NCBI GenBank assembly: GCA_022606425.2
Contig: JAHDVF020000136.1
Coordinates: 992,001-1,056,000 of the forward strand
DNA length: 64,000 nt
Origin: Lepidostoma basale
Taxonomy: Eukaryota; Arthropoda; Insecta; Trichoptera; Lepidostomatidae
Reading direction: 5' to 3'
The position numbers and the translations under genes are program-made. The notes under the pieces are model-generated. The model saw only the letters and a list, made by a program, of their open reading frames with translations, searched no databases and had not been told where the DNA came from. Shown here piece after piece: positions 1,988 through 63,605 of this stretch. Every line of letters starts with the position of its first letter. Positions within the stretch are counted from its first letter, which is position 1.

Positions 1988-2190
1988 AAAAAAACATCCT
2001 TTTGTTTATAAGGATGTTTTTTTTAACTACTTCTACTTTGTCTTTATTTCGACAGCGACCGGTTTCGCCAGGCTCACTGGCATCGTCATACTTATAGAAA
2101 TAAAGAAAGTGGAAGAAGTTAAAAAACATCGTTTTATTTAATTATTATTTAAAATGAATTTCCATCAAGAGATTTCAGTTGAATCATTTG
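1988..2190. repeat. hammerhead-like element, family HH2 (antisense half best preserved)
   Basis: On the minus strand at 2055-2090 there is a hammerhead-like core: AUGACGA, U, GCCAG/CUGGC helix II, GAAAC and the palindromic ACCGGU, followed by C. The flanking CUUUAUUUC and GAAAUAAAG form a 9-bp helix I. C3 of the core is changed to A. Flanks share the AAACATCGTTTTATTTAATT arm with the other HH2 copies. Confidence 0.65.
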
Positions 2191-2194
2191 ATTA

Positions 2195-2310
2195 TCTTTC
2201 ACAAACATGTTTCGGGACACAGACTTCCCTTGTTTAGTTTATGAATTTTAAAACTCATACGCTGAAGAAGGGAAGTCTGTGTTGCGAAACATGTTTGTGA
2301 AAGGTGCAAA
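2195..2310. repeat. head-to-head hammerhead pair, family HH5
   Basis: The antisense half (2200-2245) has helix II GGG/CCC and GAAACAUGU but a decayed CUAAACA. The sense half has CUGAAGA at 2262-2268, an extra A at 2269 and GAAAC at 2286-2290 followed by AUGUU. Helix I starts G-U, C-G, A-U, U-G. Helix II of the sense half is weakened on its 3' side. Confidence 0.6.
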
Positions 2311-2404
2311 AATGTGTGAAAATAAAATGTTTCCAAAAATTTATTCAAATGTGAATCCACAACACAAAGTGATGGCGAATATAGAAGAAAATAATATTGT
2401 TGCT

Positions 2405-2625
2405 AATTAATACGAATGAAAACGTTAGTTTTCTAGAAGTTTTTATTATTATATTTTATGGGAATGACATGTTTCATGTCACATTTGATAATGCCTTAGA
2501 AGGGCAAAACAAGTCATTCTTTTAATAAAACTTCTAGAAAACTGACGTTTTCATTCGTATTAATTATTTAATATGGAGTTTTACACCATTGTTCAAGAAA
2601 CAATAAATAATATTGTTCCTGTTGA
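2405..2625. repeat. HH1 inverted repeat element (complete example)
   Basis: Long terminal arms (ACGAATGAAAACGT... and its complement) flank a palindromic centre with UUGAUAA, U, GCC...GGC, then a GAAAC-like and ACAUGUC-like segment. This is the commonest short repeat in the window. The core differs from a classical hammerhead at two positions (C3 to U, G8 to A), so it is probably inactive. Confidence 0.7.
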
Positions 2626-3049
2626 ATTGAAATCTATATCGTGTTCTACGCTAAATAAATATAAGCAATAAAAATGTTCCGTCATCATGTTTATTTATTT
2701 TTCTTATTAGGTAACTACTACTAGTAACTACTACTACCACCAACTACTAGGAACATCATTCTCACTTAGTTTACATTACTTTTCATGAGTTTTGATTTGT
2801 GTCCCGGTAGTATCTAGACTATTGTGCTAACCCTACATTATAGGCATGTACGAGTATATTGACATTTTATTAGGCTTGTGTGCTCTCATATTTATTGGTG
2901 GCACAGTGGCATCATTGTGTAAAAACAAAAGTCGCATTTTTCAACCTATTTTAATAAAAAAAAAAATCCAATTATTGTTCAAGTCTCTATATGAAACAAT
3001 TTAGAATTTTGTTTACTATTTTTTTAACAATGATGTAAATCTAGCTATT

Positions 3050-3610
3050 TAACCATTAAGCTGTCTATCTCCGATTCTTCAATATTCAGACATCGTGTCA
3101 TGCATGCAGTCGATTTCTCCGACTCTGTATGTTGCCGAAATTTAATATTTGATTGATTTTATCGTTTCACGTATTCCTTGGTCTTCCTCTATTTCTAGTT
3201 CCGTTTACATCGTTAACACATAATTTTTTACCATTCTTTCTACATTAAACCTTTCCATGTGTCCAAACCATCTTAATGTTATAAAAAGTAATGTCGTTAT
3301 TTGAATTTTTTTGGCAGAATTTCATTGTAAATATATTTTTTTTTTGTAAAAAATCTTTTTAAAATGTATATTTAGTTTAAATCCTGCTTGCTGCCTTCTA
3401 GAACATGGCAGCGAGCTACCGAAACCGGGCAAAGACGCAAAAATCAGTGGATTTTAACTAAATATACATTTTGAAAAGATTTTTTTTTTCATTATTTCCA
3501 GCTTAATGATCCTTTCATTTTGTTCATAACACTTTCATTCGCACTGCATTCACTTATTATATTTTCATTCGACACTCTTTTTCACACATTCGTCTAAGGA
3601 TGACCTCTCA
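3050..3610 (-). mobile_element. RTE-A LINE fragment, split by a short insertion
   Basis: Decayed RTE-A 3' coding region at 3050-3278 and 3502-3610, continuous in the consensus but interrupted by the element at 3279-3501. Confidence 0.8.
3279..3501. mobile_element. 223-bp hammerhead-like inverted-repeat insertion with 7-bp target duplication
   Basis: Inserted in an RTE-A copy. CTTAATG occurs at 3272-3278 and again at 3502-3508, and removing one copy plus the insert restores the RTE-A sequence. The arms (ATGTATATTTAGTT and complement) are inverted. The centre has a degenerate core: a GGCAGC/GCUACC-type helix then GAAACCGGGC. Confidence 0.8.
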
Positions 3611-3654
3611 AATAAACATAAACTAATAATAAACTAACAACCCACCAAATCACC

Positions 3655-3735
3655 TTCCAACAATGTTCCCATCAGGCGTAAGAGTAATAGCCACATGAGC
3701 TGAACCTCTGTAAGCCAGAAGATCCAAGTCCAAGT
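3655..3735 (-). repeat. fragment of the hAT-like MITE seen at 32392-32645
   Basis: Shares the internal block containing GAACCTCTGTAAGCCAGAAG with the MITE at 32392 and with 25550-25600. Confidence 0.6.
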
Positions 3736-3867
3736 CCTCATTTCTACTCCATTTATTATACTTACATTTTTTTTTGCCAGTTCCTAGCTTCGCTTCCATA
3801 CATATTCTATATTGTGTTATATATTTTAAAATATTAAAAATACAATATTAAAATTTAGAATAAAAAC

Positions 3868-4562
3868 TCACTTAACTAACTTACCATCACGCCGTCTCCC
3901 CGGAGGGGTAGGCAGAAAGAATGGAACGCCACACTGTTCTGTCCTGACATACGTCTCTCGCTTCCTCTACATTCATACATCTTGTCATGCACGCACGTCG
4001 ATTTTTCCGACTCCTCACGTGACCGACATTCAATATTTGATTGATTTGATCGTGCCACGTTTTCCTCGGCCTTCCTCTATTTCTAGCTCCGTTCACGCCG
4101 TTTACATATACCTTCTTTACCATTCTGTCTTCACTCATTCTTTCCATGTGTCCAAACCATCTTAATGACCCTTTCCTTATTTTGTTCATAACACTTTCAT
4201 TCCCACCACATTCACTTCTTATACTTGCATTTGTCACTCTATCATATACAGATTTGCCACACATTCGTCTTAGAGATCTCATTTCTACTGCATTTATTCT
4301 ACTTTCATCCTTCTTTTGCCAGTTCCATGCTTCACTTCCATACATAAGGGTCGGCACAAGAACACCATTGTGCACTGCCATCTTAGCTTTTTTGGATAGG
4401 CTTTTGTTTGCGATGACAACTTTAAGTGCACCATTTATTCTGTTGCCTGCCCCAACCCTTCTTTCAATATCCTTCTCCACCCTCCCATCCTTTGTAAACA
4501 TACTTCCTAAATAAACAAATTCATCCACTTGTTCCAGATTTTCACCGTTTACACTAATGTTA
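3868..4562 (-). mobile_element. RTE-A LINE, 5' truncated, open C-terminal frame
   Basis: The frame 4630-3887 is uninterrupted and encodes the RTE-A C-terminus (FCNISVNGENLEQVDEFVYL, SLRRMCGKSVYDRV, GRPRKTWHDQINQ), ending AYPSGETA-stop, then the TTAG tail. It is almost identical to 55503-56095, indicating recent activity of this subfamily. Confidence 0.9.
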
Positions 4563-4974
4563 CAAAATTTAGAATATATTGTGATATACCATACAATACA
4601 GTAGTTTGCACGTTGTTGCAAACGCTGCAATTCTTTATTATATCTAAATTATATGTATAGGTATGTATGGGTATACAGACACCTACATCATGACTTTTAC
4701 CTGTACGTTAGAAATGTTTCTGGTATTGAAAACAAGTAGGTAAAGCAGTAAAAGCAGGAAACTGCGTCCAACTGGTTTTATTACGACTTCTATAATGCAG
4801 CATTTCTGTTAATAATACGTAACGACTAACATTACAACATCAATGTTCTCTACTAAATTCAAAGGCAATTTATTTCAAGTACCTACCACAACACCGTTGC
4901 CTTGGTGAATCATTGTTCTATTTTCAAAAAAATGAAAATAATTAATGTATGAAAAAAAATGAAAATAAAAAAAC
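4563..4974. other. no gene recognised
   Basis: AT-rich intergenic DNA, no feature supported. Confidence 0.4.
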
Positions 4975-5478: not shown

Positions 5479-5487
5479 AAAAAACAC

Positions 5488-9149: not shown

Positions 9150-9290
9150 TTTTATAAATAAATTTAAAGTCGCTAATTCTAAGACCGGTCTGTCGATGCC
9201 AGCGAGCCTGCAAAACCGGTCACTGCCGAAATAAAGATAAAGTGAAACTACTATTTAAAAACATCGTTTTACTATTTTTTTCTTGAACAA
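9150..9290 (+). repeat. HH2 hammerhead-like half element
   Basis: Sense half with CUGUCGA, U, GCCAG...CCUG, then AAAACCGGUC and the helix I strand GAAAUAAAG. Core base A6 is U. Confidence 0.55.
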
Positions 9291-9292
9291 TG

Positions 9293-9850
9293 ATGTAAAA
9301 CTCCATATTAAATAATTAATACGAATGAAAACGTCAGTTTTCTAGAAGTTTTATTATATTTTATGGGAATTACATGTTTCGTACTTCTAAGGCATTATTA
9401 AATATAACAATACCTCAACTCGTTGTAGTTTATACTATACGCTAGTAAATAGAGCAGAATATGGTAATTAACGAAAATTGATGTGACTCTGTACATTTTT
9501 AACAAATAATTATTTGAGTAGGTCCAGAAATATTGGAAAGTGTTTCTTGGAACTCGTTAAGAAGTTTTATGACATTCGGGGATACTAAATGATATTATAT
9601 AAATCAAAAATAAGTTATTTGAGGTGGGACGAAATAAAGTGTTTCTAAGAAAAACATTTTTTTACCAATGATTTTACACATTTCAATGATTTTAAGTATT
9701 GTATATATAAAATATGTATAAGTATTATAGGTACTCGTATATAAAATATGCATGAAGTTTCGTCACATTTGATAATGCCTTAGAAGGGCGAAACATGTCA
9801 TTCCCATAAAATATAATAAAACTGACGTTTTCATTCGTTTTAATTGTTTT
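9293..9850. repeat. HH1 element with halves separated by ~360 bp
   Basis: The antisense half is at 9293-9400 and the sense half at 9762-9850 (UUGAUAAUGCC...GGGCGAAACAUGUC). Intervening DNA is unrelated AT-rich sequence. Confidence 0.6.
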
Positions 9851-10158
9851 ATTTAAGTATTAAACTAATTCTACGAGTAGGTACATAAATATGGAATTAG
9901 TTTTCTTAAAAATACGATCTATCATTTTATCCCTTATTAACATATATTTATCACACTTCTTCTTCGTGTAAATGGCAAGCTATTTTTATATATCGTAGGG
10001 TGACTCTAAAGAGAACGTAATCTCTTTTTTTTCTCTTGCCATTGTCGCGGAAGGTTTCGCCTACTTTGTCATTTCTAGGGGCTACGGGTGTTATAATTTG
10101 TATAACATATGAATAAACGAAATAACCATAACGATATATCACACTTAATAATTATATA
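9851..10158. other. no gene recognised
   Basis: AT-rich; small reading frames without resemblance. Confidence 0.35.
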
Positions 10159-10354: not shown

Positions 10355-11425
10355 TAGTTACATTAATTATTTAAAAAAATAACATGATTCTCAAAATACA
10401 TTAAACAATTTGTTTATTCATCGAAACTTCTAGTTTTTGATTTATTTTTTTCATCATGTTTAGAATACAAAATACTTAATCTTTTAATGTAAGTATACTA
10501 AACATACCGAGAAACATAAACTAAAATGTATAATAAAAAGGGTTTCAATTAAAAAAAACTATATAATTATGAAATTCCATGGTGTTCTTCTAACATCTTA
10601 ATTTTATCGAAATATATTTATAACAATATGCACACAATCAAGAATATGAGATTTGACCAAAACTCACGAGTTTTAAGTAGATCGAATGACAATTTTGTTT
10701 ATCTCGTTCTAATATTAGAAATTTCTATTAAATCTGATCGATTTTAGTGCCATACAAAAAATATATTGTTTCTTGAACAATGAACTAAAATTCCATATTA
10801 AATAATGAATAGGAATGAATTTTTAAATTTTTTTTTTTTACATAGGTTTTGTGAACTCCGTAATTTTTACCGATTTGGGTCCTTGCTTGCCTTGATCCGC
10901 CACTGTTTAAAATAAGACGTGAAAATTGTTTCTTACAACGTTTAACTCGATTTAAAAAATGAGTAAACAAAACAAAATTAACGTTATTATATAAAAAAAT
11001 AACTTATTGTACACACCATTTCATTCACATAATAAAACATTTAAAGTAAAATATTAGGTTCTTAATTATATTAAAACTAAAAATAAAAACACCATATTAT
11101 TATTGAATAGTAATCACAGTAGACGCAGTATAATGAGCTTAAAAATTCATAATAAATACATAGATATCATTAATATTAAACATGTTTTTATTAGGACGAC
11201 ACAAACGAACCGTACATACAATTGGAGCGCTAAACCATCGACTACCATATCAAACAGCATGTGTAGTCTATGATGTGATGGAGAAAATACATTTTTTACA
11301 GTACTTTCTTTCCCACACAATCAAATATTGTGTCATGGATGCCTGCCATTTAAAAAAAAGAACTGATAGTTGATATTAAATTTCACATTCGATTTTTTCC
11401 TATGACGAAAAATTGGTTAATTAAA
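10355..11425. other. no gene recognised
   Basis: AT-rich DNA holding a short HH1 arm at 10765-10830. No coding family recognised. Confidence 0.4.
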
Positions 11426-16000: not shown

Positions 16001-18864
16001 ATAATGTGAATGTCTATTTGGTTTTATTTTATAGATAATTTTATGCCATTATTGTTGAAATATTATATGATTTCGGACATATAAGCGTCACGGCTAGCTC
16101 GAATGAAGCGCAATCGTGAAATCCAATTTTAGACAATTGTCGTCTTTGTGGATGCGTATTATCCACTAGAGTGTACGTGGTGCGAAAAACATCCATGGTC
16201 TTCCGAATAACTTGCTCGGATGGACGATTATGTCTACCGTAAAATGGACGTAGTGCACGATAAGTTTGACGAACCGAACCATGATTTTTACAAAATAAAT
16301 TTGCACAATTTGCAAGCTCTGTTCTGACGTCAGTCTATTCATGGTAAAATGGCAAAACGTATTGACTACAAATCAAATGTCAACTCTCAAATTGATAGAC
16401 TGTAGAAACAATGTTGCCAGTTTAAAAACCAAACCTCTAAAAAACACCATATAATATTAAATTATTAACTGTTTAAATAAAAAAAAAACATTTTATAAAT
16501 ATCACAATTGATTACATTCTGTCGCGACAGCTATTTCGCAACCGATCAACTAAAAAAACATCAGAAAGACTTACTTCATATATAAAATTATTATTATTAC
16601 TAAGTTTTTCTGATGTTAATTAATACGGATGAAAACGTCAGTTTTCTAGAAGTTTTATTAAATTTTATGGGAATGACATGTTTCGCCCTTCTAAGGCACT
16701 ATCAAATGACATTTGATAATACCTTAGAAGGACGAAATCTTTCGGATGTATTTTTTAGTTGATTGTAAGACCTGACGATGCTAACATCGGTTAGCGAAAC
16801 AGCTATCGCGAAAAAATACAATCAATAATCGAAAAATCGAAACAATTTATTTATTTATAAATTATACATAAATGAGACATTACAAACGATAAAACATTTA
16901 GGCGACTCATTTGGACACAAAACGGTATTACAAAGATAAAATAAAACAAAACAACATGAGACCAAAAAATCATACATATCAGAAGGAATCCAAATATGTC
17001 GACGTCAGTGGGGCAGTACTCTTTCCAGAATTTGTAATATTTTTTTATGAATACTGCCTCACTGACACTGAAAATGTCCAAATCCGAGATGATTAGATTC
17101 AGCGTCCAGGAACAAGGCAAAGGAACAATACATTTAAATTAAAAAAAAATAACCTGGGCTAATTGCTATAAGTACTAATAATTATTTATTAGTAGGTACT
17201 TATACTCGTAGAACTTATATTTCCAAAGTAATACTATGGAATTCCACAGTGTTAATGCTGACTATTATTTAACCAAATATTCGTTTAAAAAAATTTACAC
17301 GTTAACCGATTATTCGTGTTAACCAACTGATTGTGTTGAATAAAACGTGTGCATACATACCTCCATGGCCGGTGAGGCAAGCTAACACGACCCAACCCAC
17401 CATCAGGGCCCACAGATTTCTAGACAAGCTCATGTATAGCATGCTCGCCACGACGGGAATGTTCCTGTCTATATAACCGAACTCCAGGTAAACACCAATA
17501 GAAATCATTGCCACCCACATGAGAGAGACATATTTCTGAAAATAATAATTATTATTATCCAATGACTCCGCCACAGTATCATTCTTCTTCTTTGTATCAA
17601 ATAGTATTATTAGGCGGACCAGGAATTAAACCATTATTTTGAAACGGTCAGATTTTAACCACTTTGTGTCCGTATACGATAGAGGTAAAACGTGTCTTAG
17701 ATATTATTCGAATAGAACTATTTTTTAGAAGAATTAAATTTGGAAAACCCCTGATATGAAGATCAGCAGCAAAGTGAGAATTTATAAGACTTGCGTGCGA
17801 CCTATCATGACATATGAGATCGAGTGCAGGGCGGACACCGCAATCACAAAAAACGCGCCAGAGTGTCAGAAATGAAGACGCTCAGATATATATCTGGCAA
17901 AACACTTCAAGAGAGGATAAGGAATACACGGATAAGCGAGATATGCGAGGTCGAGGATGTCGTTAGGTGGGGAAGACAAAGGAGAAGATACTGGTATGCA
18001 CACGTGAGGAGAATGGACCCATCCAGACTCCCCTTCATTGTGTTGCACGGCCAGCCCCAAGGTAGACGACCCCCGAGCAGACCACCTGGTGAATTGTATG
18101 TATGAGGTATGCATGCGAAATGATCTGATGATGAATGTTAATAAGTCCAAGGTAATGATTTTTGAAAAGGAAGAAACCATGACAGTTTGCAACATTAGCG
18201 TGAATGGTGAAAATTTGGAGCAAGTAGTTGAGTTTGTGTATTTAGGTAGTATGTTTACAAGAGATGGGAGAGTGGAGAGGGATATTGAAAGAAGGGTTGG
18301 GGCAGGCAACAAAGTGAATGGTGCACTTAAAGTTGTCATCGCAAACAAAAACCTATCCAAAAAAGCTAGAATGGCGGTGCACAATGGTGTTCTTCTACCG
18401 ACCCTTATGTATGGAAGCGAAGCATGGAACTGGCAAAATAAGGATGAAAGTAGAATAAATGCAGTATAAATGAGATCTCTTAGACGAATGTGTGGATACT
18501 CTGTGTATGATAGAGTGTCGAATGAAAATATAAGAAGTGAATGCGGTGCGAATGATGGTGTCATGAACAAAATAATGAAAGGATTAAGATGGTTTGGACA
18601 TATGGAAAGAATGAATGAAGAAAGAATGGTAAAAAAATTATATGTTAATGATGTAAATGGAACCAGAAATAGAGGAAGACCGAGGAAAACGTGGCACGAT
18701 CAAATAAATCAAATATTGAATGTCGGCCATGTGAGAAGTCAGAGAAATCGACGCGCGTGCATGACACGATGTATGAATGTTGAGGAAGCGAGAGAAATAT
18801 GTCAGGAAAGAAAGGTGTGGCAGTCCATTCTTTCTGCCTACCCCTTCGGGGAGACGGCGAGATG

Positions 18865-21800: not shown

Positions 21801-24800
21801 AAACATGTCGGTGAAAAGTGTAATAAAGTGTTGTAGAAATACTAAGTGCAGTTATATTTATTCAAATATATTGATAATTCAATTTAAATATAGAATCCGT
21901 TTTCTAAATATTACCCATTCATACTTCAGTTTCATGAACGCCCCCTGTTTTCAAAATAGCCACCCAGCGGGCACCCACACATTGAGAAACACCGCTCCAG
22001 GCGAAAGCGAAAATCTACATCTGGATAATATTTAGCAATACGCTAAGCGCCGGCAATATTTACTTATTTTTTGCGTTGCAGATTAACAGGGCAAAACTCG
22101 AAATGAATATATATATATTATATAAAAAAAAATCACTTCTAATTTTGTATGTTCAAACATGACCGGACGGTTTTTATACAGACCCTTAAGTGGGGATATA
22201 GTTTAGAGCAGTGGTTCCCAAAGTGGTCTATATCGATTTCGACTTGCAAGGGGTCGTTGACAATTGGGAAAAAGTGGGAAAAAGTTAAATGGGGGTCCAT
22301 TATATGGTTCAACTTAATTGAACCCGAATAATGAAATTTTGATATCATAGCATCAGGCTCATCTCTCCTATTATAATAGAATATTGTTTTGTTTGTGTTA
22401 TTATTTTATGTACAATAAAAATGTTTGATTTGCATTTTGTTTCGTTTTAATTAATAATTCTATGTCTAAATTGTACAGTCCATTGTTGGCCGAAACACTG
22501 CGATACCTAAACATTATTAACTGAAAAATAAATTTACAACACGCAAAAATAGGTCGACAACGAATTCTAGCTTTTTTTCCCGGATTTTTTTTGGCCGGCG
22601 CACTAAGGGGTATTTCCTGTAATTAGCCGGCCATAAATCGAATTCGTAGAATTTATCCCCGATAAGAAAGAAAATGTTTTTGGGAATCTTGAATTGAAAC
22701 CAAACAATGAGCAAACCTTTCCGTCATCCAATATAAAGCTTGGGCTGGAGTGTGTCTGTTTGAATTAGACCGTCGATCTAAGTTTCGTATCTCTTTAAAT
22801 AACTCTTCAAAAATCAGTGATTTATAAAGTGAATATTTTTATTTTGGAGTTCGCTTGGAAAATTTTTGTGATGGATTCAGTTATTTCAGGTAAGCGTACA
22901 AATATACTGATAATTAAATATATTATAGAAGGTTGAAAGTCATGTTCATTATTTTTGTAAATAATTCTTTGTTTTATGTATTCAAAATGGTTTTTGTTGT
23001 ACTTCCGGGCATGTCCCCATAGTTTATCGATTGTAATTGAAAAAAGAGCGTTTACACTTATTAAACACATCAAATTTGACCGCAAGACCCCGTAAGTCGA
23101 TGTTTTTAGGGTCAATGAACCAAACTATTGCAATACCACCTTATTTCAAGATAAACTTATTTTTGAGTTGAGTTTTTAGAGTTGTCTAGGGAGGAGTTTG
23201 TTCTTAAAACAACTGAATGTTGAAGAAGTTTTTATATTTTCAAAATGAATTAGGTATGTTCTCACAATACATGACTTTAATGTACATTCTTTCTACATGA
23301 CCAGCCCAGTGTAGGCATTGAGACATTTAGAATCTCTCCCAAAGGTTTCTTGATCCATCAGTAGCTCTTACTCAAGATTTCTTTTGATTCTGTTAGTCCC
23401 ATTCTCCAGGGTGTGTCTAACATTGTTTCTCAGAATCTTCCATTCGAATATTCCCAGCTTACTTTCGTCTCTCTGCGTAATGGACCATGCTTTACAGTTG
23501 CAAGTGAATATCGGTCTTATGATGGTTTTTGGATAGGATGTCTACACTAAAAAAAGTTTGTTAGAAAATGTTTTATGCTTTCCGAATACGCCCCTTGTAG
23601 CTGCAACATCTTCCTAGTACAAGTGTATTTACCTAATCAGAGCCTTACCAAGTAGTACAATTAGGAAACACGTAATACTTTTCCATATTATGCAGGTGTT
23701 TATTAGTTTGACCATGTACGCAAACGTTTAGCACCGTCGTGTTATGGTACACTGTGATCTTAAATGGCGACGAAAGAAGGTGAAATTCGAGAGAAAGCAT
23801 CCATTAAAAGGTTAAGCTAATAACCTTGACACTTTCGACATTCACGTGTTAAGATTTACGTAGGTTATTTTAGATTTTTTTTTGATAAACATGTTGAATT
23901 TCCATGAAACACTGAAATGATGGAAATTGATAAATTTCATTAACCATAGATTCGACATGTCCAGAAATTTATTTCTTCTTCTTCTTTCTCTTAGTTTAGG
24001 TCGTATGACCTGTTTGTAACGGTGGGCTGTCCTGGGATGATGAAGTCTAGCCATTTCTCCATCTCTACGGCAGCCTTCCTGGTAATCTCTTGCTGCTTGG
24101 GTTTTCATCTTTAACAATTTTCGCAATTCTTGTATTTTCCATGCGGTCCACGTGGTCTCTCCAAAAGCGCCTTCTGCTTCTTCCCCATCTCTGACCTCAA
24201 CACCACAGACAGACCAAATTGTTTCATTTCTGACCCGATCTCTGAGGGTTTTGCCTACGTGGAAGCGTAGGGTTCGCATTTCTGCTACCCTAAGAAGGTT
24301 CTTAGTTCTATTGGTATCGGCTCTGACCTCTATTCCGTACGTCATGATGGGGCGAACGCATGTCTTGTATATCCTGACTTTACTTTCGGTTAGCATGTGT
24401 TTTCCTCCATATGGTGTCGCGCAAGCAGCCAGCCACGGCTGTCGCTTTGTTGGTTTGTGCTCGCACCTCGTCATATAGGTCACTGTAGCCACTGATGTTA
24501 TTTGTTAAATTCAATAGTCAAGACAGGGATTCAAGTGACTGGAAGTGTGGGAAAGTGGGAGGTGCCCTGCTGGAAGGTATGTGTATCAAATGCCGTGAAA
24601 CGCTAACTTGCATGACAACAGCAAGACTTCCTATAAGTCTGACTCCTTCGCATCCTGGAGTGGTCCTCGCGATATCGCGATTATCGGCAATGTGATCAAT
24701 AACCTTACTATCTGAAGAATGCCGGGTATATGACGAATCTTCGGCGCCACAAAACTGAAACCCACCAGCTAATGGAAGGTTACTCCTACAGAAAATCCCT

Positions 24801-30800: not shown

Positions 30801-32974
30801 GAATAAATGAAATAAATGAAATACACGAAATAAATGAAATAAATGAAATACATGGAATAAATGAAATAAATGAAATAAATGAAATAAATGAAATAAATGA
30901 AATAAATGAAATACATGGATTAAATGAAATAAATGAAATAAATGATAAATGAAATAAAATAAATAAATAAATGAAATAAATAAAGGAAATAAATGAAACA
31001 AATAAAGGAAATAAATGAAACAAATAAAGGAAACAAATGAAACAAATGAAATAAATGAAACAAATGAAACAAATGAAACAAATGAAACAAATGAAACAAA
31101 TGAAACAAATGAAACAAATGAAACAAATGAAACAAACGAAACAAACGAAATAAACTAAATAAACGAAATAAACGAAATAAACGAAATAAATGAAATAAAC
31201 GAAATAAATTAAATAAACTAAATTTATCACCTAGCTTTGTACTAACTGAAGCACTGCTGTGTGGTTTTAATTTAGTAAAACTCCATTATAATACGAGTGT
31301 GTATTAAAAACGCGATTGTTTTTTGGTTTCACATTGATTTTTTAAATAATTTATGTACCGGATAAAAAAATATGTATAAATAATAGTGACAAATTTACTT
31401 CGCCTTGCGAGAGTTTGAGAATGTCCTCATATCAAATTTATATTGTCGATATACAAAATAATATGATTAGTGATGTTGCTGAAGTATTGAATCTATACTA
31501 ATAATATACACGCTTTAACTGTTATAATGCAACGTGCAAATGCTTTTTAGAAATATTGGTAACTCTTATTTGAATTTCCGTATCAATTATTTGCATCTAA
31601 GATTTAGTACTATTTCCGTGAAAAATATTATGATGATATAATATAATATGTTATGCTTCCAAAATTGATATTTGATAATGGCTTTATAACGCGAATTATA
31701 TTTCATAATCAAACGTTTGTGACAACTCCGGAAAAACTTTGAAGTTAAGCTTTGAAGTTGCATGTTGTTGAAGAACAATATAAAATTTAGAAAACATTGT
31801 AAAAAAATCATTTCAAAGTCTTTTTAAAGTAAGATGTGGATGATGACTTTCATAGCGCGATTTTTGTGAGAGATTCACTTCAAGGGCGCTCTTCGTCCGA
31901 AAAGCTTCTCATAAAAAGGACATTTTTAAGAGAGCATCTAAATACTCCTTCGTTGTCTTGATTGATATATCTTGATTGCTTTGATTGATATTTTAGGGCA
32001 GCCTGTTCCACGCCGCCGGTCCTTCGATACCAAATGCACGATCCGCGAAATTTTAAGCTCTTTGGAGCCGCGGAACAAGAAGTTTGTGTGTTGTTTCTTC
32101 TTTTGAAGATCGTAGAGCTGACTGCTGGGAGTTCAGATCGATTAGCTTGCAATGGTCTGTAAGGTAGTGGGGTGCTTGTCCGTGCAAGGTTTTATGAACC
32201 AGTAGACATAGTTATATGTTTAATATTTCTTAAACATCGTCCGAAATTATCAAAGACCCTGTTTCTATAATATGAAATCAGATATTTGCATTGAAATGTT
32301 TTGTCCACATGTGTATCATTGAAATATTTAACAATGGTCAGTTTGATGATGCCATAGGAAAGCAATAACAATGCTATCGTAATAATGAGAGCAGTGGCGG
32401 TACTCCCATAGAAGCCCAGAAGCCCTGCTTGCGTAAGAAATTTTGAATCAAAACCTACTTCTAGCTTACAGAGTTTCAGTTTTTGCGGCTATTCCTCTTA
32501 CGTCTGTCTGATGGGAACATTGTTGGAAGGTGATTTGGTGGGTTGTTGGTCTATGCGGGGGCATGATTACTTAGATTTGGGGGTTTTGATTCAAAATTTC
32601 TTACGCAAGCCGGGCTTTTGGGCTTCTATGGGAGTACCGCCACTGAATGAGAGTAAAACCCTTGACGCGAATTTCAATTTATCTTACGAAATAATTGCTT
32701 CAAATTGCAATTTTAAGAATTAAAATGATATGTACAATATGTCAAAATGATATAAAAATGAAATAAAACGATGTTTTTAAATGACTATTTCCACTTCCAC
32801 TACATATTGGTCACCAGTCTGTCGATACCAGCCAACCTGGCGAATCTGGTTGCTGTCGAAATAAACACTGGTTGCTGTCAAAGTGGAAGAATTTATTTAA
32901 AAAAAAACATCGTTTTATTTAATTGTTATAATAAATAAGCTTTCATCTGAGATTTCGGTAAAATCATTAGATTA

Positions 32975-33026
<52 letters not shown>

Positions 33027-42000: not shown

Positions 42001-45000
42001 TTAAATTTTAACAGGAATCATAGTATTGTTTTTTTTTTTTTATACAAATACTTGTAGACAAAAACTGGATTTTTACCCATTGCGGGTTAATCATTTTTAA
42101 AGGATTAATTGTATCTTAATAGAGTTGGAGTAGATTAATTGAATTTGAATAATGTTTGGAGGTTTTTATAGTAAATTGGATATTGTCAGAAAGGGAAGAA
42201 GGGATGTGTTAACACATCTAAATATTGTCAAAAAAGGACAAAGGGTTTAAGTGATATTTCAAAATATAGAGAAAAAAAATGGTAAAGTGTTATTTTCTGA
42301 TTTTCAACAATTTGAAGTCAGCGACACGGCTTTTCTATCTTCAAGTGATCTTCTCACTTTAAGTGATCGCTTAACCCAACCAATGACAGGTCATAAGTCC
42401 CGTAAACGTCTCGACTACCATATTCTGTTTCCAAATAATTTACATCTTCGTCTCTATTGAGATACAATTAATCCTTAAGTAATCATAGTGTTTGGCCAAA
42501 ACAACGGACTATTTAATCTTTAAAATGTTTTAATACTCACATGAATATAACAGATATAGGATGGTCATACATTGAGAACCGCTTCTCCGTCTTTTTGACT
42601 TCTAGAACTCTCAATGACATGTTGTATATCCTTTGCTGGTACAGGACATCCGCATTGAAATACTTTTGTAGAAGATCAGATACCTCGCTCTCGGTGCAGA
42701 CTGAGGGCAGGCAGAGGCCCAAGGATACTTTGGTCTGGTGAATAAACATTTACATGCTCATATATTATATTTAAAAAAGTATTGTTAAAAACAATTCGTT
42801 AAAAAATATCACCGATATAACAATTTAATCTTCTTCTTCTTCTTCATCGTCAGCATCTTCTTCTTCTTCATCGGTCCACTGCTGGACATAGGCCTCTTCC
42901 TTTCCCTTCCACTCGTCTCTATCTCCTGCCAGCCGTAGCCACATTCCCCCACCCCCCCACGCCACGGCAGCAATGTCGTCGCCGACGGTACGGCCGTGGC
43001 GGTACTCCCATAGAAGCCCAGAAGCCCAGCTTGCATAAGAAATTTTGAATCAAAACCTCTTCTGGCTTACAGAGGTTCAGCTCTTGGGGCTATTCATTTT
43101 AAGTCTGATTTGGTGGGTAGTTGGTTTATGCGGGGGCAGGATTACTTAGATTTGGGGTGTTTTATTCAAAATTTCTTACGCAAGCCGGGCTTCTGGGCTT
43201 TTATGGGAGTACCGCCACTGGCACTCGTCGGCCCACCTTTTTTGCGGCCTGCCGACGTTTCTCCTATTCTCCCATGGTTACCCTCCTCACCTTATTATTT
43301 TCTGGGTCCATCTATCCTCACTCTGTCTCGCCACATGACCCGCCCATTGCCAAATCAGTCTGTTCCCTATGTTAAGGGCGGCTGACTTATAAACTCACCA
43401 ACCCATTTGGCAAGCGTGGTGTTTAAATGCCAAAAACCTTCAAAACCAAAATGCACTCGAACAATTTAATGCGTGCCATTATTTTCCAAAATTATTTTAA
43501 ATAAAACCTTTCTACAAACGTTTAAGCAATTATGGACTCTAAAAATTGGAATCTGAGTCCGACTATTAAGGTCTATATTCGCCTGTCTTACGAAAATAAT
43601 CATTTTCATTTCATTTTCATTTTCATTTATTTTGATAATAATCACAAACATTACAGACATACAATTCCAAATCGTTTGCAATTACATTATAAACAGAGAA
43701 GCATTAAAAAAAATAAAAATTAAGCTTAAGAGTAAGAAAAAATCATAACATTGATATTGCATCCCTGAGGCAACTCACACTATCACGAAATATGTCGACC
43801 TCCGAGGCGATCCGATTAAGCAATAAGATTGCCCTACCCACAGGCATTACCATTGGCAGGTTGGTTCTGCAGCGTGGCAAATAAAACAATCTGTGCTGTC
43901 TTTGACGAAGGTAATTATCAGGGACAAATAGACCTACATCACTCAGGACATCCGAGTTCTGTATACGGCCGCCAATCAGCTGAAAGAAGTGAACTCCCAA
44001 GTGAATGTTCCTCCTTCTCTCCAATGATTGGTAGCTTAGCATACCTAGCAAGAATTCAGTCGGAAAGAGCCACGGGTAATAACCGCGCTCCCTGAGGTAA
44101 AGAAAGCGCAGAAATTTTTTCTGCACTCGCTCCACCATCAGAGAATATCGGATCCCAGGCGGTGACCAAATAACGGAACTATATTCCAGCCGACTTCTTA
44201 CCAGGGAATCCTTTAATACATTAATTTTTTAAGTTAATTAGAGCTCGATTCGTAACAAAAGTATAACCAGAAAAACCGCCGGAGTACAATTAATGAATAT
44301 TAAAAGTTTTACCCCGGTCCGATAAATATTTACAGAATTATCGGGAAACACAATAACGCACTTTCGCATTTGTGTATATAGATGTATACACAAATAGTAC
44401 ATAAATTTTATTATAGTTAAAATGTTTGATTTTTAAAACTAACTAACTAACCAACCATCATGCCGTTTCCCCGGAGGGATAGGCAGAGAAAATGGACTGC
44501 CATACCAATCTGTCCTGATACACCTCTCTAGATTCCTATACATTTATACATCATGACATGTACGCTCGTCGATTTTTTTTACTGTGGCCAGCTTTTAGTA
44601 TTAGATTAATTTGGTCATGCCATGCTTTCCTTCGTCTCCCACGCTTTCTCTTTCTACTCACACTGCTCGTATACAACAATTTAACCATTCTTTTCTCGTC
44701 CATTCGTTCCATATGTCCAATCCATCTTAGGAAACCTTTTTAATTTTACTTATGACCTGCCTTACATTTCTTTCTTATTTCGTTGTTCGGTATTCTTTTC
44801 CTGCAGATTATTCTCAGTGATCTCATTTCTACAGCATTTATCCTACTTTCATTCTTCTTTTGCCAGCTCCAAGCTTCACTTCCATACATTAAGGTTGGCA
44901 CTAGAACTCCTGACTATGAGATCGCCGTTTATTTTGTTTCCAGCACCGCCCCTTTTTTCAATGTCACATTTCATTTTACATCTTTTGTAAACACGCTTCC

Positions 45001-49984: not shown

Positions 49985-50760
49985 TGAGCTAAACACTTTT
50001 CTAGAATATTTATTGTTTCTTGAACAACGGTGTAAAACCCCATATTAAAACATCAATAAGAATATAAACGTCTGTTTTCTAGAAGTTTTATTATAATTTA
50101 TGGGAATGACATGTTTAGCCTTTCTAAGTCATTAACAAACGTAGGTTTATCGTCTAAGTCTGGAATATTCTAAGATATTCGCTATATTTGATAATGCCTA
50201 AGAGAGGCGAAACATTACCCTTATGTATGGAAGCGAAGCATGGAACTGGCAAAAGAAGGATGAAATGAGATCTCTTAGACAAATGTGTGGATACTCTGTG
50301 TATGATATGGAGTCGAAAGAAAATAAAATAATTGAATGCGGTGCGAATGATGGCGTTATGAACAAAATAATGAAAGGACCATTAAGATGGAAGGAATGAA
50401 TGAAGAAAGAATGGTAAAAAAATTATATGTAAAGATGTAAATGGAACCTGAAATAGGGGAAGACTGCGGAAAACGTGGCACGATCAAACAAATTAAATAT
50501 TGAATGTCGGCCATGTGAAGAGTCAGAGAAATCGGCGGGCGTGCATGACACGATATATGAATATTGAGAAAGCGAGAGAAATTTGTCAGAAAAGAAAAGT
50601 GTGACAGTCCATTCTTTCTGCCTACCCCTTCGGGGAGACGGCGTGATAGTTAGTAAGTTAGTTAGTTAGAGGCGAAACATGCCATACCCATTTACTATAT
50701 TAAAACTTCTAGAGAACATACGTTTTCGTTAATTAATTAATTATTTAATATGAAGTTTAG
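49985..50760. repeat. HH1 element interrupted by RTE-A
   Basis: Left arm 49985-50125; the sense half starts at about 50185 and is split in its GAAACAU box by the RTE-A insert, resuming at 50681-50760. Confidence 0.75.
50216..50668 (+). mobile_element. RTE-A insertion with 12-bp target duplication
   Basis: Starts ACCCTTATGTATGGAAG, ends in a TTAG tail. GAGGCGAAACAT at 50204-50215 and 50669-50680 flanks it. Several internal deletions. Confidence 0.85.
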
Positions 50761-50784
50761 CATCATTTGGATATACTCGTACAC

Positions 50785-53409: not shown

Positions 53410-53770
53410 CTGTTGAATTGTTTATTAATATGAAAGAAAACGTTTGTTTTCTAAAATTTTGATTATATTTTATGGAATTTAGATTGTTTCTTGAACAATG
53501 GTGTAAAACCTTATATTAAATAATAATTACGAATAAAGACGTTAGTTTTATACAACTTTTATTATAATTTATGTGAATAACATGTTTCGCCTGTCTAAGG
53601 CATCAAATGTCTTTTAAGAATTGATAATGCTTTAGGCAAACAAAATAAAAATTCTAGGTTGTTAGATATTTTGCTCCTCTAAGGCAATAATAAATACGAT
53701 CGAAAACGTCTGTTTTGAAATAGTTTTATTATATTTTATGGGAGTGGCAAATTTCGCCTTGCTAAGGCAT
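53410..53770. repeat. HH1 elements, two partial copies
   Basis: Arms at 53430-53475, a second copy at 53480-53660 (ACATGTTTCGCCTGTCTAAG centre) and a third arm to 53770. Confidence 0.6.
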
Positions 53771-53771
53771 T

Positions 53772-54045
53772 AAGGAAACACCGGTGGGAAAAGCAATTAA
53801 TCTGCTGAACGCGGTCTCCTCAGAGATCGACGTCTTTCATATTAGTGAAAGTACGTTCAGAAGGCAAATACTCTTAATTCTGGAGAGTATCCTGTCTTCC
53901 TAATGTTGAACCATCTCTCATGCGTTTCTGGTAGTATACTATACACAATATATTATTTTACCTGTTCTCAATAGATGCCTCAAAAATTAATTTTGTAATG
54001 TCTGTTGATGAAATAAACTGATTTGATTTGATTTTGTTTGCATTC
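53772..54045 (+). mobile_element. jockey-like LINE 3' end
   Basis: Nearly identical to 1084-1340: C-terminal codons, stop, and the GATGAAATAAACTGATTTGA tail. Confidence 0.85.
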
Positions 54046-55502: not shown

Positions 55503-56095
55503 AAAACTAACTAACTAACTAACTTACCATCACGCCGTCTCCCCGGAGGGGTAGGCAGAAAGAATGGAACGCCACACTGTTCTGTCCTGACATACGTCTC
55601 TCGCTTCCTCTACATTCATACATCTTGTCATGCACGCACGTCGATTTTTCCGACTCTTCACGTGACCGACATTCAATATTTGATTGATTTGATCGTGCCA
55701 CGTTTTTCTCGGCCTTCCTCTATTTCTAGCTCCGTTCACGCCGTTTACATATACCTTCTTTACCATTCTGTCATCACTCATTCTTTCCATGTGTCCAAAC
55801 CATCTTAATGACTCTTTCCTTATTTTGTTCATAACACTTTCATTCGCACCACATTCACTTCTTATACTTGCATTTGTCACTCTTATCATATACAGATTTG
55901 CCACACATTCGTCTTAGAGATCTCATTTCTACTGCATTTATTCTACTTTCATCCTTCTTTTGCCAGTTCCATGCTTCACTTCCATACATAAGGGTCGGCA
56001 CAAGAACACCATTGTGCACTGCCATCTTAGCTTTTTTGGATAGGCTTTTGTTTGCGATGACAACTTTAAGTGCACCATTTATTCTGCACTTCATT
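55503..56095 (-). mobile_element. RTE-A LINE, young copy
   Basis: TTAG tail at 55506-55525. Frames 55904-55530 and 56094-55855 overlap across one inserted base near 55885. Nearly identical to 3868-4562. Confidence 0.9.
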
Positions 56096-57290: not shown

Positions 57291-57324
57291 GTTAAAAATA
57301 GAGTTTTACATCATTGATCAAGAA

Positions 57325-57540
57325 ACAATAAATATATAAAACGATGTTTTTTAAAAACTACTTTTTTGTCTTTATTTTGCCAGTCTCGCTGACATCAACA
57401 GATCAGTCTGTCGAAATAACTAAGAAGCTGAAACCAATAGCTATTGAAGTGAAGACAAAGGTGGAAGTATTTCTTAAGAAACGTGAACTTGAACTTCCAA
57501 CGAGAGATTTTATTAGAATTATTAGATTATCCAAAAAATA
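57325..57540 (+). repeat. HH2 element, decayed
   Basis: AACGATGTTTTTTAAAAACT arm and TCTGTCGAAATAAC, AGAGATTTTATTAGAATTAT blocks. Confidence 0.5.
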
Positions 57541-57579
57541 CTAGTTTTAGACATCACAAATCTTTCTTTAAACAAATAA

Positions 57580-57800
57580 GCTTAAGGCGTTAAAACTGTG
57601 GAATTCCATAATGAATTTTCTTTATATAATTTATACACGGTTTTTCCACTTTTGAGTTTTTTATCGATCTGTCAGAAGGTTTAACACCTTCGTCCTCGGG
57701 AGATCGAGAAAAATAAACTCCAAAGTGGTTTTAATTCATATTTTTTTTAAATTCATAATAATAAACACGATCGTTTAATGGTTTTACTTGGATTTAATTT
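57580..57800. repeat. HH4 element
   Basis: GAGAAAAATAAACTCCAAAG and CCACTTTTGAGTTTTTTATC arms around AAGGTTTAACACCTTCG. Confidence 0.55.
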
Positions 57801-58495: not shown

Positions 58496-58499
58496 TGCC

Positions 58500-60205: not shown

Positions 60206-60229
60206 ATCGACTAACTAACTAACTAACCA

Positions 60230-61471
60230 TCACGCCGTCTCCCCGAAGGGGTAGGCAGAAAGAATGGACTGCCACACCTTTCTTTCCTGACATATTTCTC
60301 TCGCTTCCTCAACATTCATACATCGTGTCATGCACGCGCGTCGATTTCTCTGACTCCTCACATGGCCGACATTCAATATTTGATTTATTTGATCGTGCCA
60401 CGTTTTCCTTGGTCTTCCTCTATTTCTGGTACCATTTACATCATTAACATATAATTTTTTTACCATTCTTTCTTCATTCATTCTTTCCATATGTCCAAAC
60501 CATCTTAATGATCCTTTCATTATTTTGTTCATGACACCATCATTCGCACCGCATTCACTTCTTATATTTTCATTCGACACTCTATCATACACAGAATATC
60601 CACACATTCGTCTAAGAGATCTCATTTCTACTGCATTTATTCTACTTTCATCCTTCCTTTGCCAGTTCCATGCTTCGCTTCCATACATGAGGGTCGGTAG
60701 AAGAACACCATTGTGCACTGCCATTCTAGCTTTTTTGGATAGGTTTTTGTTTGCGATGACAACTTTAAGTGCACCATTCACTTTGTTGCCTGCCCCAACC
60801 CTTCTTTCAATATCCCTCTCCACTCTCCCATCTCTTGTAAACATACTACCTAAATACACAAACTCAACTACTTGCTCCAAGTTTTCACCATTCACGCTAA
60901 TGTTGCAGACTGTCGTGGTTTCTTCCTTTTCAAAAATCATTACCTTGGACTTATTAACATTCATCATCAGATCATTTCGCATGCATACCTCATACATACA
61001 ATTCACCAGGACTTGTAGTTCATGCTCGTTGTCTGCAAGTAGGACAGCGTCATCCGCATACAAGAGACAGCTTACTGACACTCCGCTCATTTTGGCACCT
61101 ACATCCAACCCTTTCAGCTCTCTCATACAATTGTCCATATACAGATTAAATAACCACGGGGACATTACGCAACCTTGTTTGACACCTTTATTGATATCAA
61201 ACCAGGCTGTAAGATCTCCATTTACTCTGACACTAGCAGTGCTTTCCGTGTATAGCGACTTAATGGCCGTGATCAGTTTTGTACTTATTCCATATTCAGA
61301 CAATATTTTCCACAACTTTTCTCTATTAACGTAATCATATGCTTTTTGTAAGTCGACAAATGCACAGAAAAGTTTGCGATTTTTGGCCAGAAACTTCTCT
61401 GTCAATGTACGAAGTCCAAAATTTGATCCATACATCCTCTGCCATTCATAAAGGCACCTTGCACATCCCAA
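60230..61471 (-). pseudogene. RTE-A ORF2, second part (RT palm, thumb, C-terminus)
   Basis: Continues after the one-base deletion: LRTLTEKFLAKNRKLFCAFV (DLQKAYD catalytic Asp region), GVKQGCVMSPWLFNLYMD, SCLLYADDAVLLAD (YADD at 61049-61060), then the C-terminal region with YLGSMFTRDGRVERDIERRV, GRPRKTWHDQINQIL and QSILSAYPFGETA-stop. All palm motifs are intact. Except for the shift near 61418, the protein would be complete from the linker on. Confidence 0.9.
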
Positions 61472-62424
61472 ACTTTGTCACTCGTCAATTTTCTTACTCT
61501 TTCTATTAAAATTCTGCCATAGACTTTACCAACGACACTCAAAAGACTAATAGCTCTGTGGTTTCCACATTCCATACGCGATCCTTTTCCTTTGTACAGG
61601 GGCATAATTACTGCTCTCCTCCAGTCTAGCGGCGTATATCCCTCCTCCAAGCACTGGTTAAATAACTTACATAACCATGTAGAAACCACTTCGCCACCGC
61701 TTTTAATAAAGTCTATGGCAATACAATCAAACCCAACAGCTTTTCCACTTTTCATTGCACTCACGGATCTTTTCATCTCATTCGTACTTATTTTTTCAAT
61801 ATTATCATTCATAGGTCCCGCACTCGCACTAGCTGTCATATTTTCGATCACGCTTGTATCACCACCATACATCTCCTTAAAATATTCCATCCATCTTTCT
61901 TGTATGATCTTACTCTCCGTTAACATTCTTCCCTCGTTGTCTAAAATTGCTTTCACACATCCACTATCAGGAGGATTTCGGGCTTTTTTAACTTCTTTCC
62001 AAAACATTTTTAAATTTGCTTGGAAGTTGTTTGTCATTTTGAGCCCTTCTTCCTCCTTCAGCTTTTCTTTCCGCGCTTTCACTACCGACTTCACTCTCTT
62101 CTTGCATACCTTATACAAATCTTTTGCTCTTTCATACTTAACTCTGTCATTCTTATTTATCGACAACATATTCAACCAAGCATCTTTCTTCTCTTTAACA
62201 GCAATCTTTACGTCATCATTCCACCATGCATCCCCTTTCTTTCTTCCTTGTACACACACACCACACGATTCTTTCGCTGATTCACACAAACTCTCCTTCA
62301 AGTATTTCCAGGTCTCGTCAATACTCAACTCACTTACATCCCGCTCACTCAATCTATCTTTCACTTTTCTTACGAAATTATTTCTAACGTCATTGTTTTG
62401 CAGTTTTTCAACTTTGACTCTAGT
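61402..62424 (-). pseudogene. RTE-A ORF2, first part (linker and RT fingers)
   Basis: Open upstream of the first listed codon (APTRVKVEKLQNNDVRNNFV) and then 320 aa: ESCGVCVQGRKKGDAWWNDD, KSGKAVGFDCIAIDFIKSGG, HRAISLLSVVGKVYGRILIE, VQGAFMNGRGCMDQ. The RT motifs 0-2 are all recognisable. It runs out of frame after DQ near 61418 because one base is missing. There is no true ATG at the beginning, consistent with truncation. Confidence 0.88.
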
Positions 62425-62454
62425 CGGTGCGACTATACTGTGATAATGATATCT

Positions 62455-62693
62455 GCACCACCATTGTGCGAATGATGGTGTTATTCATAACACCATCATT
62501 CGCACCGCATTCATTTCTTATATTTTCATTCGACACTATCATACACAGAGTATCCACACATTCGTCTAAGAGATCTCATTTCTATTGCATTTATTATATT
62601 ATAACTCATTATTATTATTATTTATTATATTATATTATTATCTATTATTTTATTATAACTTATGTGAATGACATTTTTCGCCTGTATAATTAT
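62455..62693. mobile_element. 239-bp chimeric insertion between 25-bp direct repeats
   Basis: CGACTATACTGTGATAATGA... (25 bp) at 62430-62454 and 62694-62718. The insert starts with a 17-base inverted copy of its own next segment (AATGATGGTGTTAT / ATAACACCATCATT), then contains a 204-bp segment identical to 63217-63420. Confidence 0.8.
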
Positions 62694-62839
62694 CGACTAT
62701 ACTGTGATAATGATATCTCTGGGCTCAAAGTCAGGACTGACATTTCTTATGCCATTTTCCCTGCATTATTTAAACAATCCATACAGATAAATTGAACAAC
62801 TTATTAAATTAAATTGAAAATTAATTTGTTTAATCCACA

Positions 62840-62915
62840 AAATATTTAAAAAATATTAAAAAAACACGACATGTTTCGGTGGATACCTCCATCTTCAGAT
62901 GTTAAAATATAAAAA
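62840..62915 (-). repeat. HH7 hammerhead element directly after an RTE-A tail
   Basis: AT-rich arms (AATATTTAAAAAATATT) and the core described below. The RTE-A tail of the next copy begins at 62918. Confidence 0.65.
62863..62903 (-). ncRNA. hammerhead ribozyme, best core in the window
   Basis: CUGAAGA 62898-62892, extra U 62891, helix II GGAGG (62890-62886), loop UAU, CCACC (62882-62878, one A-A mismatch). GAAA 62877-62874, then palindromic ACAUGU and C17 at 62868; expected cleavage between 62868 and 62867. Helix I AACAU (62903-62899) pairs with GUGUU (62867-62863), with a further AUAU/AUAU helix beyond an internal loop. This is a complete type I core apart from the extra U. Confidence 0.75.
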
Positions 62916-62917
62916 AG

Positions 62918-63395
62918 CTAACTAACTAACCATCACGCTGTCTCTCCGAAGGGGTAGGCAGAAAGAATGGACTGCCACAATTTTCTTTCCTGACATATTT
63001 TTCTCGATTCATCAACATTCATACATCGTGTCATGCACGCGCGTCGATCTCTCTGACTCCTCAGATGGCCGACATTCAATATTTGATTTATTTGATCGTG
63101 CCACGTTTTTCTCGGTATTCCTTTATTTCTGGTTCCATTTACATCGTTAACATATAATTTTTTTACCCTTCATTCTTTCCATATGCCCAAACCATCTTAA
63201 TGATCCTTTCATTGTTTTATTCATAACACCATCATTCGCACCGCATTCATTTCTTATATTTTCATTCGACACTATCATACACAGAGTATCCACACATTCG
63301 TCTAAGAGATCTCATTTCTATTGCATTTATTATATTATAACTCATTATTATTATTATTTATTATATTATATTATTATCTATTATTTTATTATAAC
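62918..63395 (-). mobile_element. RTE-A 3' region
   Basis: TTAG tail 62918-62931, C-terminal region to about 63330, then an AT-rich stretch joined to HH1 sequence at 63395. Confidence 0.85.
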
Positions 63396-63530
63396 TTATG
63401 TGAATGACATTTTTCGCCTGCCTAAAGCATTATCAACAGACACATTTGAGGCGAAATATGTCATTCACATAAATTTTAATAAAACTTCTAGAAAACAGAC
63501 GTTTTCATTCGTATTAATTATATGACGAAT
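63395..63530. repeat. HH1 element
   Basis: ACATTTTTCGCCTGCCTAAAG / GAGGCGAAATATGTCATTCA halves and the AAAACAGACGTTTTCATTCG arm. Confidence 0.65.
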
Positions 63531-63534
63531 ATTA

Positions 63535-63605
63535 AATGAATTTTAACACTGTTTTTTCCACTTTAGAGTTTATTTCTCTTTTGTTAGAGGGCTCGACACC
63601 TTCAA
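63535..63605. repeat. HH4 arm
   Basis: TTTTTTCCACTTTAGAGTTT and GCTCGACACCTTCAAAC match family HH4. Confidence 0.5.

Follow-up and report, generated by a model that had tools for sequence, protein, structure and literature searches.

Small dimeric hammerhead ribozymes of Penelope-like elements (PLEs) were reportedly described by Lunse et al. in 2017 and by Cervera and De la Pena in 2014. The available part of one account of Penelope describes pseudo-long terminal repeats (pLTRs) in inverted head-to-head pairs, with a 31-bp tail on one of them and target-site duplications (TSDs) of 8-10 bp, and suggests self-priming on an antisense template (PMC3846280). Excerpts of an in vitro study report that a purified PLE protein (PAc) cuts and extends both target strands, that reverse transcription initiates internally on the RNA, at two positions that delimit the 'tail', and that hammerhead cleavage is not needed (PMC11167929). 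The head-to-head pLTRs and the tail were thus noted before, without a tested mechanism for the pairs. Here, we analyse a 64-kb stretch of the genome of Lepidostoma basale (Trichoptera), C420:992001-1056000 in an assembly of 768.8 Mb and 1572 contigs (the window), in which hammerhead-bearing repeats of six families, labelled A-F in this analysis, are dispersed as single and paired arms. We conclude that these repeats are very probably pLTR insertions of the PLEs of this genome. Their kind is already known, namely PLE pLTRs with minimal hammerheads, and the paired head-to-head layout, which a preliminary description of the window had called unusual, is a published Penelope trait complete with the tail on one arm (PMC3846280).

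The connection to PLEs comes from genes elsewhere in the genome. The GIY-YIG endonuclease domain (PF01541) has 62 matches genome-wide. In one lineage (L073-L076, L079 and L080) family C adjoins the endonuclease gene in direct orientation, inverted orientation or both, the best copies beside the endonuclease having 96-99% identity. In a second lineage (L071, L072, L077 and L082) family A arms in opposite orientations flank an endonuclease fragment, with 78-94% identity; at L081 one family A arm lies on the same strand as the endonuclease, and at L078 three family A arms lie on the endonuclease strand and one short arm on the other. The frame at L079 matches PF01541 and is 49% identical over 99% to P0001, a protein with RVT_1, GIY-YIG and PF26215. 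A firefly hypothetical protein with a reverse-transcriptase domain, as its sources name it (P0004), aligns over nearly its full length inside many frames of 829-873 aa; at C236 and C742, judged by alignment coordinates only, its residues 1-392 fall within open frames of 758 aa that contain an endonuclease match as well. The preliminary description had proposed the Penelope link, recommended a search for elements sharing the arms and seen no Penelope coding frame in the window; the first is supported by these loci, the search returned long frames with homology to reverse transcriptase and endonuclease, and the 64-kb window indeed has no match to PLE proteins. At least two of the six families (A and C) are, judging from these neighbourhoods, end pieces of PLEs located elsewhere in the genome, and by extension B, D, E and F are presumably pLTRs as well. 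Weighing against this reading, the gene link was found for A and C only, with none tied to B, D, E or F.

Two other GIY-YIG matches were set aside as not belonging to PLEs: L068 (G000:C102:22626-22847) is UvrC by Pfam, and L070 (C729:135548-135769) was judged UvrC-like from its frame. Both have long bacterial-type frames and probably lie on contaminant or endosymbiont contigs. As a separate observation, PLE frames with identical scores recur at a tandem spacing of 2,954 bp at C308:2096145-2107985 and C502:3014-14849, as facing tandems in C308 and as opposite-strand frames in C502, probably reflecting recent activity.

The window contains 51 arms from the six families (D 19, C 13, F 7, B 6, A 4 and E 2). 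Among 18 adjacencies of same-family neighbours within 300 bp, 15 are head-to-head, two tandem and one tail-to-tail (binomial P 3e-7 for the head-to-head excess against a 25% expectation). For the rest of the genome, copies were sampled as the best-ranked similarity matches or as the first places in contig order, and the counts are not genome-wide rates. Of 26 loci picked by an exact family A core with pairing ignored, 13 have another arm head-to-head with the first at a distance of up to 400 bp, and the set includes one tandem adjacency, four split alignments and no tail-to-tail adjacency; with L121 and L122, two family A loci that had been picked as facing pairs, the count becomes 15 of 28. 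The first 100 strict cores in contig order (the pattern is given below) form eight head-to-head and one tandem adjacency within 200 bp, and nine and three, respectively, within 400 bp. The facing layout noted in the preliminary description is therefore confirmed at the level of arms.

To describe the pairs we used 97 pair alignments from fetched loci and the window (A 14, B 45 and C 38), which have 96 distinct left arms, the family A locus L105 being counted twice. In 73 of them a short arm faces an arm with a tail, that is, one extending about 40 nt past the proximal site (A 7, B 33 and C 33). Eight pairs, all of family B, have no tail, none of the 97 carries a tail on both arms, and 16 could not be classified, an arm end having fallen elsewhere. 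For family B, 6.6 two-tail pairs would be expected if the arms were independent (P of none, 0.0007), and the B sample is not biased towards tails, given that its query was tail-less. The family C query carried one tail, which biases its count of 33; the five family C pairs in the window, the query included, all carry exactly one.

Many pairs are flanked as a unit by a TSD. A TSD-like score of at least 8 around the whole pair was found in 25 of 40 B, 19 of 33 C and 6 of 11 A pairs, as against 33 of 587, 17 of 480 and 6 of 110 when flanks of different loci were combined; B and C had been prefiltered for good alignment (40 of 45 and 33 of 38), and the 11 of 14 A pairs are those with full flanks. 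The length of the duplication is variable, about 8-16. Where a TSD is seen, the pair is therefore one insertion and not two. No clear TSD was found in 15 of 40 B, 14 of 33 C and 5 of 11 A pairs, which counts against extending this to every pair.

The 5' ends of the arms are sharp in family B and in the short arms of family C. In family B they fall at consensus positions 1-4 in 32 of 34 tail arms and 32 of 34 short arms. Family C short arms start at 35-42 in 27 of 36 pairs, and in the PLE copies TATATAAA lies about 30 nt upstream of this start. The start of the family C arm looks like a TATA-linked transcription start, and no C arm among 38 pairs extends to the TATA box. The tail-bearing C arm starts at 69-102 in 31 of 36 pairs, close to the predicted cleavage point (75/76) and below it. 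We considered self-cleaved RNA as a template and make no claim for it: these tail-arm ends are spread across 69-102, with no single spike at 76 and no pile-up at 75/76, and family B arms extend across the entire core as far as the start, and so the B templates were not cleaved there. Because the tail-bearing arm begins near or below its core in most sampled family C pairs, many pairs lack two intact cores, and the earlier picture of an antisense core facing a sense core holds for the head-to-head arms and not for the cores of many pairs. Between the arms of family B lie 0-22 nt, highly variable among copies. The longest match of this filler to an arm end averages 5.9 nt against 4.5 nt in shuffles (bare means compared, over 29 fillers of at least 5 nt), and the B centres may be partly templated by arm ends.

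Two explanations of the pairs deserve a full comparison. We favour one reverse transcription for each arm; the alternative, which we regard as unlikely, is a single template, in which one cDNA or antisense transcript primes itself, copies back and is inserted as a hairpin that forms the inverted pair. In 25 of 36 family C pairs (24 of the 31 fetched and, of the five in the window, the query pair alone) private sequence amounts to 20 nt or more in each arm. As each of these arms has sequence that the other lacks, neither was copied from the other, and as junction points and filler differ between C loci, these are mostly separate events. Eight head-to-head junctions in PLE coding sequence, with arms within 30 nt, were read by eye from match lists, and in four of them the arm ends lie 69-108 residues apart. 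At site 76 of family B (G/T, 26% T) the arms differ in 11 loci, share T in 5 and lack it in 24, where 2.8 T-sharing loci would be expected for independent arms. The variable filler at the centre is likewise at odds with a single template.

Several observations nevertheless fit self-priming and weigh against our preference. The C pairs were fetched with a one-tail window pair whose arms are mutually exclusive, which biases the share of 24 in 31. Among the five window C pairs only the query passes the 20-nt test, another reaches 15 nt, and in the remaining three the short arm is covered by the tail arm entirely or to within a few bases. In family B the 5' ends are equal and the tail arm includes the entire short arm, and B alone would therefore allow one cDNA copied back on itself; arms within one B locus are also slightly closer than shuffled arms (0.0590 versus 0.0632, P 0.0002), with slightly more variants in common. 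The remaining four coding junctions are nearly symmetric (0-6 residues), as self-priming would give. Divergence alone has little power to establish the independence of arms, most differences being private. Given the symmetric junctions, the excess similarity of B arms and the covering C tail arms, self-priming may also occur alongside two reverse transcriptions, which the private sequence suggests for many cases.

Under two reverse transcriptions per insertion, the PLE protein would cut both target strands and prime one reverse transcription from each, a step that we infer from the available part of the in vitro study (PMC11167929). Both would have an internal start on the RNA, at the tail site in one case and about 40 nt short of it in the other; the cDNAs would run toward the 5' end of the transcript, and end joining with filler would then link their ends. 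A single-unit transcript would yield only a pLTR of about 120-330 nt without a promoter, because reverse transcription starts close to the transcript 5' end, and such copies would be dead on arrival. This would explain the abundance of pLTR-only copies. The hammerhead would be present in every full arm because it lies between the start of transcription and the start of reverse transcription; it probably processes multi-unit PLE transcripts, acting as a dimer, and would not be the maker of the pairs. The repeats had been described as looking like non-autonomous mobile repeats, and the window does lack PLE genes; as the genome has such genes, with C and A as their pLTRs, they are better read as promoter-less PLE insertion products. 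It is possible, although we lean somewhat against the proposal in its full form, that PLE integration is obligatorily double-primed, at a distal tail site and a proximal site with the cDNA 5' ends fused, that the paired pLTRs are its by-product, and that half of the hammerhead families are natural core variants.

Two other classes of mobile element were weighed. Foldback or miniature inverted-repeat (MITE-like) DNA transposons, whose terminal inverted repeats would contain hammerhead-like sequence by accident, could account for inverted repeats of about 250 bp in many copies with duplications at their flanks. This is very improbable: the arms meet at a nearly spacer-less centre, the TSDs vary in length and do not accompany all pairs, the outer ends are unequal with a tail on one arm, and arms of families A and C lie next to endonuclease genes of PLEs. 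Retrozymes, tandemly repeated non-autonomous elements whose spread involves circular RNA produced by self-cleavage, would account for small repeats with type I hammerheads scattered through an animal genome, and PLEs are proposed as their helpers in the available part of PMC7229834. They consist of direct tandem repeats with canonical hammerheads, whereas here helix III is minimal and head-to-head adjacencies outnumber tandem ones both in the window (15 and 2 of 18) and among the first 100 strict genome matches, which makes this origin highly unlikely too.

The cores share an ordered signature across the six families, consisting of a hammerhead-like box, one spacer base, helix II, GAAAC, a palindrome and NUH. 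Exact box, stem and GAAA occur together in the window at 16772 (+), 25223 (+), 39342 (-) and 41876 (-). Under a strict descriptor that demands an unaltered CTGANGA, 4 bp or more of stem, GAAAC and NUH, the window has three sites (16772+, 39342- and 41876-), where 40 dinucleotide-shuffled versions average 0.025; with a relaxed box it has six, where the shuffled versions average 0.325. The simple pattern CTGANGA-N6-30-GAAA is weak alone (nine against 4.0 expected). Genome-wide, CTGANGA-N10-24-GAAAC-N2-4-GTC has 36,236 occurrences (18,222 + 18,014), compared with 64 for the reversed control, and one family A core has 2,999, compared with 0 for its control. A covariance scan with Rfam 15, part of the check recommended in the preliminary description, detected no hammerhead in the window, either at the gathering score or with the threshold relaxed to E 10. 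This is the one point in favour of a chance or AT-rich low-complexity resemblance to hammerheads, which the strict counts in genome and window and the pairing of helix II (below) practically eliminate. The blindness of Rfam is most likely explained by the extra base and the absent helix III.

That extra base is present in the cores examined, and our first stem descriptor, having no room for it, missed the window sites. Of 164 helix II positions in 41 distinct strict cores (letters were given for 47 of the matches listed), 148 pair when one base is skipped after CUGANGA, against a shuffled mean of 93.4 and a maximum of 113, a control that overstates independence as the cores derive from few families; with no base skipped the count is 50 against 49.4. 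Helix II covaries only with one base after CUGANGA; this base is U in 32 cores and A in 9, and the second pair of the stem alternates between CG, GC and UA. In 44 of 47 strict cores AC-loop-GU forms a palindrome, which helix III of a dimer requires. The cores are thus, on the evidence of pairing, type-I-like hammerheads with a minimal palindromic helix III, predicted to self-cleave, and the preliminary description was right to identify several such families. As a precedent, De la Pena and Flores are said to have described, in 2001, a viroid hammerhead with an extra core nucleotide, reportedly between A9 and helix II.

The family consensuses show that the box itself varies. They read CTGAAGA-U-GGAGG/CCUCC in A, CTGATGA-U-GCCAAC/GUUGGC in B, CTGTCGA-U-GCCAG/CUGGC in C (with an identical box in the PLE copies), TTGATAA-U-GCC/GGC in D (72 copies), CTGAAGA-A-GGAC/GUCC in E and CCGATGA-U-GAAGG/CUUUC in F. 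The F consensus derives from 16 copies, about 10 of which span the box, and the C alignment took 19 of 30 fetched loci (the plus-strand matches), all 30 being used in the pair analyses. The prediction that consensuses would restore the canonical motifs was borne out for GAAA(C), present in six of six, and only partly for CUGANGA, present in A, B and E, the A copies having been selected with that box in the search pattern. The other three depart from it by C3U+G8A in D, A6U in C and U4C in F. Among the family D copies that cover these positions, 77% have T at 3 and 81% have A at 8, so that both sides of the 3-8 pair have changed together, from C-G to U-A. This double change would keep a pair known to matter: in the available text of PMC11167929 a C3G/G8C double mutant partly restores cleavage. 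A C-like core with a regular box, CTGAAGATGGCAGCGAGCTGACGAAACCGGTC, is also present in the genome. The tails of families A and F are alike, and the families, earlier called sequence-unrelated, are therefore not all so. The preliminary description had included neither the one-tail rule, the TSD around the pair and the single base between CUGANGA and helix II nor the changed box in half of the consensuses.

The arms are distributed over the whole window. Family C pairs lie at 2007-2195 (short arm 2007-2092 (-), with a degenerate core at 2089; tail arm 2097-2195 (+)), at 25912-26106 (short arm 25912-25994 (-) and tail arm 25989-26106 (+), overlapping by 6 nt at the junction), as two pairs within 32752-33370 (32752-32975 and 33182-33370, with core CTGTAGA at 33241), and at 36864-37105 (tail arm 36864-37003 (-), with core CTGTCGA at 37000; short arm 37007-37105 (+)). 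A single C arm occupies 9184-9271 (+), and C remnants are found within 57323-57530 (57323-57383 (-) and 57490-57530 (+)). The family B head-to-head pair at 41770-42021 has arms 41770-41891 (-), with a core at 41876, and 41901-42021 (+) around a 9-nt centre, neither of them tailed. Two further B arms within 16442-16811 (16442-16546 (-); 16757-16811 (+), core at 16772) have a family D head-to-head pair between them at 16617-16737, as would result from insertion into the middle of an earlier B pair. B tail fragments lie at 22477-22542 (-) and 42469-42511 (+). Family A is represented by fragments within 17125-17258 (17125-17191 (-) and 17219-17258 (+)), by an arm at 25030-25313 (+) with core CTGAAGA-T-GGAGGTATCCTCC-GAAAG at 25223, and by an arm at 62811-62921 (-) whose core at 62898 has one helix II mismatch. 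The family E arms are 39258-39368 (-), with core CTGAAGA-A-GGACTGGTTGTCC-GAAAC at 39342, and 39693-39791 (+).

Further family D pairs are found at 2404-2590 (2404-2475 (-) and 2481-2590 (+)) and 40853-41025 (40853-40946 (-) and 40945-41025 (+)), and a third at 63384-63436 (-) and 63449-63521 (+) is followed by a family F fragment at 63522-63579 (-), the three together spanning 63384-63579. A D arm at 9289-9403 (-) is followed, as the next D arm, by 9765-9852 (+), with the intact-stem core TTGATAA-T-GCC..GGC-GAAAC at 9769. Three D arms lie within 50031-50767 (50031-50142 (-), 50186-50215 (+) and 50670-50767 (+)), and three in tandem at 53424-53772 (-) make up the window's only two tandem adjacencies within 300 bp. 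D fragments occur at 30415-30454 (+), 62648-62689 (-) and 10779-10819 (-), the last downstream of a family F arm at 10500-10612 (+) (together 10500-10819). The F pairs are 27972-28128 (27972-28012 (-) and 28029-28128 (+)) and 57576-57728 (57576-57713 (-) and 57704-57728 (+)), and a single F arm at 29962-30111 (+) has its core at 29981.

Other repeats in the window include a tandem array at 30636-31217, with about 65 copies of the 9-bp unit TAAATGAAA, which yields an artefactual 180-aa open frame. Fragments of an element of the long interspersed nuclear element (LINE) type are numerous (3867-4427, 29351-29900, 41031-41661, 55510-56071, 60210-62364 and others); some end in GATGGTTAGTTAGTTAG repeats, their longest frames are 413 and 320 aa, and reverse-transcriptase frames are present.

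This genome offers very many natural PLE insertion products with clean ends. In about 100 pairs, the one-tail rule, the TSD around the pair and, in many cases, the mutually exclusive arms speak for each insertion having involved two reverse transcriptions, an idea that is directly testable with the published in vitro PLE system. The genome also has a large natural collection of minimal hammerheads that carry one inserted base in the core and include variant boxes. The scale and the rules, namely a TSD around the pair, one tail and never two, sharp 5' ends and mutually exclusive arms, are possibly new: within the open-licence literature, which leaves out key PLE papers and is weak evidence of absence, we found no report of a counted one-tail rule, of mutually exclusive arms or of pLTR-only pairs at such scale.

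Compared with the small dimeric hammerheads that PLEs are said to contain, the cores described here are alike in CUGANGA, the short helix II, GAAAC and a palindromic helix III suited to a dimer, and differ, in the cores examined, by an additional U or A that separates A9 from helix II. The viroid hammerhead reportedly has an extra nucleotide in the catalytic core as well, in a viroid and not in a retroelement. Metazoan non-LTR retrozymes, as far as the available part of PMC7229834 describes them, are similar in being dispersed small repeats with type I hammerheads in animals, and differ in forming direct tandem arrays, not head-to-head pairs, of canonical hammerheads with tertiary contacts. 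The closest match is to the Penelope/Poseidon PLEs, which, in the accessible portions of PMC3846280 and PMC11167929, combine direct and inverted head-to-head pLTRs, an optional tail of about 31-40 nt on one inverted pLTR, a short TSD, a frame with reverse transcriptase and endonuclease, and a minimal hammerhead in the pLTR. Unlike in those elements, pLTR-only pairs are common here, no pair in 97 has two tails, one core pattern reaches 36,236 copies, and three of six family consensuses change the CUGANGA box.

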